Part shown: piece after piece, positions 17,107 to 19,562 of the stretch
Numbering within the stretch: the first letter of the stretch is position 1
Layout: each line of letters opens with the position of its first letter
Origin: a virus
Length of the DNA stretch: 23,306 bases
Direction: 5' to 3' (one strand)
IMG/VR virus record: IMGVR_UViG_3300008448_000675
Coordinates: 1 to 23,306 of that record
Notes under the pieces: generated by a model
Databases searched by the model: none
Told to the model about the DNA's origin: nothing
Seen by the model: the letters and a program-made list of their open reading frames with translations, nothing else
Translations under genes and position numbers: made by a program

Positions 17107-17180
17107 GGTCCATTAGCTCAGTTGGTTAGAGCGCTACCCTGTCACGGTAGAGGTCGTCAGTTCAAGTCTGATATGGATCG
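17107..17180 (+). tRNA. tRNA-Asp (GTC)
   Basis: A 74-nt cloverleaf five bases after tRNA-Asn. The acceptor stem is GGTCCAT with ATGGATC (one G-T pair). The D-arm is GCTC/GAGC, the anticodon stem CTACC/GGTAG with loop CTGTCAC, and the T-arm GTCAG/CTGAT with TTCAAGT. Anticodon GTC is at 17141-17143. Discriminator G73 fits tRNA-Asp. CCA is not encoded. Confidence 0.95.
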
Positions 17181-17190
17181 CTGGAGGGTT

Positions 17191-17556
17191 ATGAAACAGT
17201 GTAGTAAATGTAAGCAAATGTTATTGTTGTCTGAGTTTTCACCTTCAAGCGGTGGCAAATATCTAAGACCTGAGTGTAAGTCTTGCGCTAAAAAATTAGC
17301 AAAAAGAAGAGAAGAATTAAAACAAGAATATGGGTATCCATCAGGAAATTATGTATGTCCTATATGTTTAAAAAATGAAGAAGAATTAAAAGGCACTGGT
17401 GGAAATGCAAGTGTTTGGGTAGTAGATCATAATCACGATAATGATATTTTTAGAGGACACCTATGCCACAACTGTAACAGGGGGCTTGGAATATTTCAAG
17501 ATAATATAGATAGACTAAATAGAGCTATTGACTATTTGTCTAAGGATATGATATAA
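17191..17556 (+). CDS. Recombination endonuclease VII-like HNH nuclease
   Basis: A 121-residue protein of the T4 endonuclease VII type. The core motif is VVDHNHDND (D79, H80) followed by RGHLCHNCNRGLG with N96. The structural zinc is held by C56, C59, C92 and C95. An extra N-terminal cysteine module (C4, C7, C30, C33) looks like a second zinc ribbon. The enzyme class cuts branched DNA such as Holliday junctions; related stand-alone copies can act as homing endonucleases. The frame is open back to 17122, but that would run through tRNA-Asp. The ATG at 17191, with GGAGG three bases upstream, is therefore the start. The window also carries a RuvC-like enzyme, so two junction nucleases are present. 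Confidence 0.9.
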   Translation: MKQCSKCKQMLLLSEFSPSSGGKYLRPECKSCAKKLAKRREELKQEYGYPSGNYVCPICLKNEEELKGTGGNASVWVVDHNHDNDIFRGHLCHNCNRGLGIFQDNIDRLNRAIDYLSKDMI

Positions 17557-17615: not shown

Positions 17616-18056
17616 ATGGTAAGTTCATTTGCATGGGACCTTTTTAAGGATCCCTTTTTTATTGGCTTCAATCGTGAGATGGAGCGTCTAAGTAATGTAC
17701 AACTGGCTTCTCGCCAAGTATCCTATCCACCGTACGATCTAGTAAAGGTAGACGATGATAACTTTAAGCTATCTCTAGCTGTTGCTGGATTTTCAAAGGA
17801 CAATATCTCAGTTACTGTAGATAATTCAACACTTATTATCAAGGGTGACAACGCTGTAGAGTCTGAAGAAGAAAACTCTGAAGTTCTACATAAGGGTATT
17901 GCTGCTAGAAAGTTTACAAGAACTTTTGCTCTTGGTGAATACATGGAGATTGTTGGTGCAGAAATGAAGGACGGTATGCTTCATATTGATATTGAACGTA
18001 TTGTTCCAGAAGAAAAAAAGCCAAAAGAGATCACAATCAAGGCATCTAAGAAGTAA
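17616..18056 (+). CDS. hsp20: Hsp20 family small heat-shock protein
   Basis: A 146-residue alpha-crystallin chaperone. The domain spans residues about 38-130: YDLVKVDDDNFKLSLAVAGF begins the beta sandwich and ISVTVDNSTLIIKGD is the classical mid-strand. MLHIDIERIVPEEKKPKEI closes it. The C-terminal I-T-I motif (in EITIKA) is the IxI anchor used for oligomerisation. Small heat-shock proteins hold unfolding proteins without ATP; phages related to T4 carry similar genes, perhaps for virion assembly. It has a strong promoter, a structured leader and a good SD (AAGGAG, seven bases upstream), so it forms a single-gene unit. Confidence 0.95.
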   Translation: MVSSFAWDLFKDPFFIGFNREMERLSNVQLASRQVSYPPYDLVKVDDDNFKLSLAVAGFSKDNISVTVDNSTLIIKGDNAVESEEENSEVLHKGIAARKFTRTFALGEYMEIVGAEMKDGMLHIDIERIVPEEKKPKEITIKASKK

Positions 18057-18153: not shown

Positions 18154-19167
18154 ATGAAACTTAAACTTTTTATTATTACTTTAACACTATCTATTACCAC
18201 ATCATTTATTCCTACCGCACATGCAACAGATTTAAAAGGGGCGGGATCAACATTTTCTGCTAATTTTATAGACAAGTGTAGGGTTATGTATGCACAGCAA
18301 ACAGGTAATATACTTAACTATACCCCCAATGGATCTGGGGCAGGAAGAAACTTTTTTAATAATAAGATTGTAGATTTTGCAGTATCAGATACACCATATT
18401 CTAGTTTAGATAGAAAACCAACGGACGAATTTTTATATGTTCCAGTGGTTGCTGGACCTATAGCGGTAGTATACAACCTAAAAGGTTACAACATTAAAAT
18501 TAAACTCACCAAAGAAACATTAGCAAAAATATTTGCTGGTCAAATAACAATGTGGAATGATCCAGAAATTCAAAAACTTAATATCGGAAAGTTACCTAAA
18601 ACAAAAATAACAGTAGTTTATAGGGTTGATGGGTCTGGAACGTCTGAAGTTTTTACATCTTATTTAAATGCAGTGGCTCCACATATTTGGACGAAACCAG
18701 GAAATAAAACATTTTCATCAGCTTTTCCAGGAAACATTAATAGCTATATTGGTGGATTTCAGTCAGCAAGCGGATCAACACAGGTATCAGTAGTTCAATC
18801 AACAATCAATGGGTCTATTTCTTACAACGAAGTATCTTATGTTGGTAAGTTTAAAGCAGCATCCATAGAAAATGAAGCTGGAAAGTTTATGTCACCAACT
18901 TCAAGTGCTGCAGCAGCATTTCTATCTAACCTAAAATTCAACGCTGATGGGTCTACCTATTTAGACTATAAAAACCCTAACAAGCTTTCCTATAATATAT
19001 CTACTTTTGCATATGCTGTAGCCTATACAAATAGCAAAGAAAAAGCGGTAATTATCAGAGAATTCTTAACATATGCAATTACTAAGTGCAATAAGATAGA
19101 TGGATATGCTCCAATTACTGGCAATGCATTAAAAGTTGCCAAGTTGCAAATAGCAAAGATAAAGTAG
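18154..19167 (+). CDS. pstS: PstS-like phosphate-binding protein
   Basis: A 337-residue periplasmic-type phosphate-binding protein. The signal peptide ends after AHA (residue 24). Phosphate-contact motifs are in order: GAGSTFSANF (S32, T33), NGSGAGR (60-65), SDTP (78-81), and RVDGSGTSEVF (R157, D159, S161, G162, T163). It is of normal PstS length. There is no lipobox cysteine; the only cysteines are C42 and one near the C-terminus. It would therefore be released unless held by a partner or an outer membrane. Phage pstS genes are known auxiliary metabolic genes in cyanophages, thought to boost phosphate uptake. No pstC, pstA or pstB is present. A leaderless promoter precedes it. Confidence 0.93.
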   Translation: MKLKLFIITLTLSITTSFIPTAHATDLKGAGSTFSANFIDKCRVMYAQQTGNILNYTPNGSGAGRNFFNNKIVDFAVSDTPYSSLDRKPTDEFLYVPVVAGPIAVVYNLKGYNIKIKLTKETLAKIFAGQITMWNDPEIQKLNIGKLPKTKITVVYRVDGSGTSEVFTSYLNAVAPHIWTKPGNKTFSSAFPGNINSYIGGFQSASGSTQVSVVQSTINGSISYNEVSYVGKFKAASIENEAGKFMSPTSSAAAAFLSNLKFNADGSTYLDYKNPNKLSYNISTFAYAVAYTNSKEKAVIIREFLTYAITKCNKIDGYAPITGNALKVAKLQIAKIK

Positions 19168-19173
19168 TATAAT
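19144..19173 (+). promoter_or_regulatory. Promoter for the structured RNA
   Basis: TTGCAA (19144-19149, inside the end of the PstS gene), 18-base spacer, TATAAT (19168-19173). No gene start follows within 100 bases. The downstream product is the folded RNA at 19174-19256 and, on readthrough, the HNH gene. Confidence 0.68.
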
Positions 19174-19256
19174 GGAAGTCCCCGCATAGGACTTAGGATG
19201 GATTAGTTACCCATTTTATATACCTGGCCATCGTGCTTGAATCGCCTATGCGGGGC
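19174..19256 (+). ncRNA. Structured RNA with two alternative folds
   Basis: An intergenic element of about 80 bases with its own promoter and no ORF. An 11-bp perfect helix can join CCCCGCATAGG (19180-19190) to CCTATGCGGGG (19245-19255), enclosing a smaller arm GATGG (19197-19201) with CCATC (19228-19232). Alternatively, AAGTCC (19176-19181) pairs with GGACTT (19189-19194) around a seven-base loop CCGCATA. The two folds share bases 19180-19190, so they exclude each other. The 76-nt closed domain is tRNA-sized but has no T-arm or anticodon arm. I see no T-run after it. It could be a small regulatory RNA or the leader of the HNH gene. Confidence 0.6.
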
Positions 19257-19270
19257 TCAATAATTTAAGA

Positions 19271-19276
19271 TATAAT
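19271..19276 (+). promoter_or_regulatory. -10 element for the HNH gene
   Basis: TATAAT ten bases before the ATG at 19287, giving a leader of only about four bases. No -35 match is visible; the region where it would lie is the 3' strand of the RNA's long helix. Confidence 0.5.
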
Positions 19277-19286
19277 TAAAAGTGCT

Positions 19287-19562
19287 ATGACCGAAAAAGA
19301 ATTAGCACACAAGACGAAGCAGCAGTATAAAAAAAGACTCGCTGAGATCAAACAAGCGAGTGGTTGTGCTGACTGTGGAGAAAATAACCATATAGTTCTT
19401 GATTTTGACCATTTAAGAGATAAAAAATATAATGTTTCAAGGATGATTCATGATGGATTTTCTTGGGCAGCAATTAAAAAAGAAATAGCAAAATGTGAAG
19501 TGGTATGCGCTAATTGCCATAGAATTAGAACGTATCTAAGATTGACAGAGAAAACTGGATAG
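19287..19562 (+). CDS. HNH endonuclease
   Basis: A 91-residue HNH nuclease. The zinc-binding pairs are C27-x-x-C30 and C74-x-x-C77, and the catalytic element is L39-D-F-D41-H42 followed by ANCHRIRT with H78. The N-terminus is a basic helix (HKTKQQYKKRL). Stand-alone HNH genes in phages are often homing endonucleases but can also act in packaging. Here it stands alone behind the structured RNA and its own -10 element, far from the terminase, which favours a mobile-gene origin. The -35 box of the next promoter (19542-19547) lies within its coding end. Confidence 0.87.
   Translation: MTEKELAHKTKQQYKKRLAEIKQASGCADCGENNHIVLDFDHLRDKKYNVSRMIHDGFSWAAIKKEIAKCEVVCANCHRIRTYLRLTEKTG

Follow-up and report, generated by a model that had tools for sequence, protein, structure and literature searches.

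The element at positions 19168-19256 of a 23.3-kb virus record is, on the evidence of comparative analysis, a real small RNA, not catalogued before, that belongs to freshwater viruses infecting bacteria. The whole 23,306-nt stretch of that record was analysed and is referred to here as the window. The element very probably stands alone as a structured small RNA. There is complementarity between its best-conserved stretches and a key part of ribosomal RNA, which suggests that the virus uses the RNA to touch the protein factory of its host.

The small RNA occupies the gap that separates the PstS stop codon from the start of HNH. The genes on its 5' side include those for a DNA polymerase, a terminase, an HslV-family peptidase, two tRNAs, Hsp20 and a PstS-like protein, while those on its 3' side specify a 91-aa HNH endonuclease, a zinc-ribbon protein, a DUF7455 protein, a nuclease and a thioredoxin-like protein, the last label being taken from sequence. 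The phage-encoded PstS-like phosphate-binding protein (18154-19167) and Hsp20 chaperone (17616-18056) adjoin the RNA, and the Hsp20-RNA gene order is kept in most relatives. Further upstream, a tRNA-Asp gene (17107-17181) overlaps the start of an endonuclease VII ORF (17122-17556, counted from the first listed start codon).

Structure and conservation of the small RNA

What can be read from a single copy of the element is limited, and the motifs in the window are weak when taken alone. A simple calculation predicts about 0.5 perfect 11-bp inverted repeats (spacing <100 nt) per 23 kb; 6-bp hairpins are common, and the element folds with a z of only -1.9 relative to shuffles. The weight of the evidence lies in comparison. 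Relatives of the HNH protein were found at 80 loci, nearly all with a homologous element directly upstream, and a search with the RNA sequence, making no use of HNH, recovers the family independently. In all, the ~85-nt element is found in more than 130 distinct viral sequences, with one copy per phage genome; in long phage records, additional matches fall on the opposite strand of that one site.

The long closing helix, P1, is judged to be real because all 11 pairs are kept in 45/45 distinct divergent homologues and 9 of them have changed on both sides. The P2 hairpin (GAUGG/CCAUU in the RNA) is about 97% paired. The covariation score of the family alignment is reached by 0/500 shuffles, and the + strand is favoured both by G-U pairs and by model scores, which are mostly 65-104 bits on + and 20-29 on -. 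This combination of pair covariation and G-U asymmetry argues that the conserved entity is an RNA and not a DNA site. The parts of the element are collected in Table 1.

Table 1. Parts of the small RNA element and its surroundings in the window.
Feature	Position	Strand	Remarks
-10 box TATAAT	19168..19173	+	Of the small RNA; directly 3' of the PstS stop codon; conserved 5' of P1
P1 5' strand CCCCGCATAGG	19180..19190	+	Pairs with P1 3' strand; conservation given in text
E1 core CTTAGGATGGATTAGTTACC	19192..19211	+	Near-invariant in class A; found again in scaffolds B, C, D and E
CTTAGGA within E1	19192-19198	+	Antisense to 23S rRNA 1923-1929
TAGTTAC within E1	19204-19210	+	Antisense to 23S rRNA 1910-1916
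P2 hairpin GATGG/CCATT, 9-nt loop ATTAGTTAC (loop consensus NNUAGUUAC)	19197..19215	+	96.9% of cells paired; 3/5 pairs with double changes
P3 hairpin CTGGC/GCTTG, loop CATCGT	19224..19239	+	70.9% of cells paired; weakest helix of the element; loop variable in the family, with GNRA-looped variants
E2 element GCCATCGTGC	19227..19236	+	Antisense to 23S 1964-1974 with one gap; top antisense window of E2 segments is 23S 1956 (all of 16S and 23S)
P1 3' strand CCTATGCGGGG	19245..19255	+	Same evidence as P1 5' strand
T-rich tract site after P1	19256..19265	+	Terminator-like in the family; weak in the window copy (CTCAATAATT)
Second -10 box TATAAT	19271..19276	+	Not part of the RNA; probably the promoter of the HNH gene (ATG 19287), which is almost without a leader

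The first-pass annotation had described this region as a promoter-driven RNA with two mutually exclusive folds. The sequence features on which it built are genuine: TATAAT at 19168-19173 and the hairpin AAGTCC/GGACTT around CCGCATA are present where it had placed them, or within a base, and the perfect complementarity of the two P1 strands is confirmed. Its suggestion of a phage small RNA gains support from the promoter sequence and the 11-bp helix. Compensatory changes, however, occur in only one of the two helices that it proposed, being found in 9/11 pairs of the long helix and at the level of shuffles in the 5' hairpin. That hairpin has 71.9% of its cells paired versus 72.3% in shuffles, and is lost or mismatched in whole clades (for instance GTCCCCGCATAGGCCTTGG and AACCCCACATGAGAACTT), so that it is ruled out as a conserved alternative fold. 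A kinetic switch between the 5' hairpin and the long helix is thus very improbable: the hairpin of the window copy does fold at -6.5 kcal/mol, yet it is unconserved, the full fold with P1 reaches about -29 kcal/mol, and the closing helix is never broken.

Catalogues and collections outside the freshwater viruses gave little. At the gathering threshold Rfam 15 finds two tRNAs only in the window, with no credible match at E<=10 in the element region, and no description of the RNA family was found in the full-text open-access literature (subscription papers lying outside that scope). Among cultured phages blastn detects no homologue of the RNA, an Arthrobacter PinkFriday match being a chance similarity before a gene start, and the cultured-phage relatives of the HNH gene sit in different gene contexts, such as tRNA arrays. 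The RNA was not found in 297 genomes of one actinobacterial class under stricter filters, for which a positive control was run, and E1 at <=1 mismatch is absent from the genome contigs examined.

The probable transcription unit and its neighbours

Is the RNA a unit in its own right, or a leader of the gene that follows it? A match of at least 5/6 to TATAAT is present in the 22 nt before P1 in 131/132 distinct homologues, and is perfect in 63 compared to 11 after shuffling, with commonest distances from the -10 box to P1 of 6 and 8 nt. This conserved sequence points to a promoter belonging to the RNA itself at its 5' end. On the other side of P1, the fraction of T in the following 10 nt is 53% versus 25% downstream (132 distinct members). 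With a -10 box before the helix and a T-rich stretch after it, the element looks like a stand-alone small RNA. In 109/132 homologues a second perfect TATAAT is found between P1 and the next ATG, <=40 nt from P1; the downstream gene therefore seems to start independently, almost without a leader. Across 19271-19289 of the window and in homologues, the end of TATAAT is 10 nt from the HNH ATG, a layout also seen 5' of unrelated genes in other phages.

The idea that the RNA acts as a cis-regulatory leader, attenuator or terminator draws on its usual position directly 5' of HNH and on the T-rich tract 3' of P1. HNH is indeed the next gene in most members. In others, however, it is replaced by a Dps, methyltransferase-like, glutathione-peroxidase-like or structural-looking gene (names assigned by eye from translations), or there is only a convergent gene, so that no one type of gene recurs downstream on a shared transcript, as would be expected of a riboswitch or cis-leader. 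What stays constant is the syntenic spot, 3' of Hsp20 (or PstS) and 5' of a variable stretch that leads to a conserved structural-looking gene. Differing downstream genes and a separate -10 box near the ATG make cis control of HNH unlikely, and a leader function for whichever gene follows is improbable in general. The first-pass proposal that the RNA might control HNH meets the same difficulty, as the RNA is kept with other or convergent genes and HNH has a -10 box of its own. A DNA-level element, such as a homing or recognition site that resembles rDNA and is tied to the endonuclease, is remoter still. HNH often adjoins, and the core resembles the conserved 23S rDNA stretch where I-CeuI-type endonucleases cut, but the element also exists where HNH is missing, in further scaffolds and within tRNA arrays.

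A shared core and its complementarity to 23S rRNA

The most conserved part of the family in the window, hereafter class A, is not confined to it. With the pattern CTTAGG-N6-TAGTTACC, the E1 core CUUAGGAUGGNNUAGUUACC, or 18-nt core, is seen to recur in at least four other structured scaffolds, most of them in phage tRNA arrays and some circularly permuted. Class B (L424, L415, L408, L400) and class E (L473-L483, L485, L486; found later) place it directly after a phage tRNA-Ile(UAU) gene. Class C (L386, L445, L451, L362, L463, L364, L366, L469) is a structured RNA of ~85-115 nt within phage tRNA arrays or beside tRNAs, and its closing helix keeps 13/13 pairs, 5 with double changes. Class D (L399/L397) is a permuted scaffold with TATAAT upstream and a terminator-like hairpin, and no tRNA was found in the stretch examined. 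Rfam 15 returns only tRNAs at the gathering threshold for classes B, C and D, and nothing credible at E<=5 for C, D and E. The elements run E1-E2 in A and B and E2-E1 in C and D, as in circular permutation, and the permutation keeps the E2(3')-to-E1(5') adjacency that antisense pairing requires.

Within E1, CUUAGGA is perfectly complementary to 23S 1923-1929 and UAGUUAC to 1910-1916 (E. coli numbering; the target stretches are identical in an Acidimicrobiia 23S). When every 25-nt window of 16S and 23S was scanned, with 5S and one tRNA added, 23S 1906 was the top-ranked antisense window for the E1 variants. Independently, with E1 removed, the E2-side segments rank 23S 1956 first; by class, this window is first for class C alone and second to fourth for class A alone, or first when the last 24 nt are used. 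The two target stretches, 23S 1910-1929 and about 1960-1974, flank H70/H71. A class C example is TCAGTACGTCATTGTGCAG against antisense 23S TCATTACGCCATTCGTGCAG, and a class A example is GGCATTCGTGC and GCCATCGTGC against GCCATTCGTGC.

A joint statistic, which requires both targets within 80 nt, is 24.0 for antisense 23S, as against <=21.2 for 300 dinucleotide-shuffled 23S and <=20.5 for 108 genomic decoys (E1-like sites cut out, plus shuffles, the first set being biased since its contigs were chosen by an E1-like pattern). An Acidimicrobiia 23S fragment scores 23.9. Elsewhere the statistic is at the null level, with 18.9 for 16S antisense, 16.7 for 23S sense and 18.6 for 16S sense. The complementarity to rRNA thus appears to exceed chance, with E2 support that is uneven among classes: strong only in A and C, weak in B, D and the later class E. 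The GNRA-loop clade and L321/L458 have lost E2 or carry an altered form of it. The sequences had already been seen when the rRNA hypothesis was framed, and class E, the first scaffold examined afterwards, places its E2 site at a rank of only 22-50 of ~880. Nor is E1 unique by duplex energy when taken alone, as 12/100 shuffles are as good somewhere and H69 is not singled out.

Other partners were considered. The P2 loop AUUAGUUAC (within window 19197-19215) is one base off the 16S 790 loop AUUAGAUAC, both being 9-nt and GG/CC-closed, and E1 alone in the sense orientation resembles that loop with a higher z; mimicry of the 790 loop was nevertheless rejected, as E2 gives it no support and the joint statistic is that of the null. 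Forty phage tRNAs reach <=17.5, again the null level, and tRNAs were discarded as targets. So was the mRNA of the phage HslV-like protease (GGTAACTA in the window copy), the site being unconserved in other phages.

Possible action on the host ribosome and relation to known systems

The mechanism proposed is of an ~85-nt RNA, made up of the long closing helix P1, P2 with its conserved 9-nt loop, and P3, that would be transcribed from the promoter sequence just 5' of P1 and act in trans by pairing with domain IV of the host 23S rRNA. The P2 loop UAGUUAC would kiss 23S 1910-1916 in the H69 loop, CUUAG(GA) would pair with 1923-1929 next to H69, and E2 in P3 would pair with about 1960-1974, 3' of H71. 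With H70/H71 looped out, the RNA would occupy the 50S surface at the subunit interface, where it may affect subunit joining, and presumably translation, or shield or remodel ribosomes in infection. Tolerance of permutation would be explained by such pairing, because the order E2(3')-junction-E1(5') pairs colinearly across the base of H70/H71. Two points count against it: in the mature 50S the target sequence is itself folded, and the E2 bases are taken up by pairing within P3. Taken as a whole, trans pairing at the subunit interface is a plausible reading that falls a little short of an even chance. A broader version is put forward somewhat more tentatively. In it, phage RNAs in at least five scaffolds, some permuted, share a core antisense to H69 and to the sequences flanking H70/H71; by docking on the 50S of the host during infection they would block or capture ribosomes, or else shield or repair them.

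The same stand-alone RNA could instead hold E1 and E2 as a three-dimensional core, binding a protein or ligand or serving as a scaffold, with a coincidental match to rRNA. A real structure with conserved loop nucleotides, circular permutation of the sort typical of structural cores, and a class E with E1 and without a clear E2 all sit well with this reading, which is possible if rather doubtful; set against it, both elements independently pick neighbouring, antisense-colinear sites in one rRNA, beyond shuffles and decoys. The hammerhead and twister ribozyme types come to mind as well, since permuted scaffolds occur in phages close to tRNAs and to an HNH gene. A self-cleaving ribozyme in several permuted types is nonetheless improbable, as no Rfam ribozyme model matched and, in class A, transcripts from the promoter would already begin at P1, with no evident task for cleavage.

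The small structured phage RNA is a known kind, and it is the permuted shared core and the rRNA complementarity that set this family apart. It resembles the trans-acting base-pairing small RNAs of bacteria and phages in having its own promoter sequence, a small structured RNA and a conserved single-stranded loop suited to pairing, and differs in that the proposed target is 23S at the subunit interface, not mRNA, and the core is common to permuted scaffolds. Phage tRNA clusters are known to contain stable non-coding RNAs of unknown function, for instance RNA C and D of T4. By description, classes B, C and E are similar in lying inside or adjoining phage tRNA arrays, whereas class A is outside arrays with its own promoter sequence. 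GOLLD, ROOL, HEARO and other phage-linked candidate RNAs of unknown function have likewise come from lake and phage sequence; by description they are far larger or tied to other proteins, and the phage RNA here has no Rfam match.

The mycobacterial protein toxins MazF-mt6 and MazF-mt3 cut H70 of 23S at UUCCU 1939-1943 (PMC5930309). This site falls between the two proposed target stretches, with the difference that MazF is a protein toxin. A link to MazF, with the RNA shielding or splinting H70, is speculation.

The family adds an uncatalogued and abundant RNA to freshwater phage biology. If the pairing with rRNA is true, it would be the first such RNA, as to our knowledge there is no earlier phage-encoded antisense RNA aimed at the ribosome subunit interface, and it would represent a new route of host takeover or counter-defence. 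It would also provide a lead on the role of small RNAs in phage tRNA clusters.
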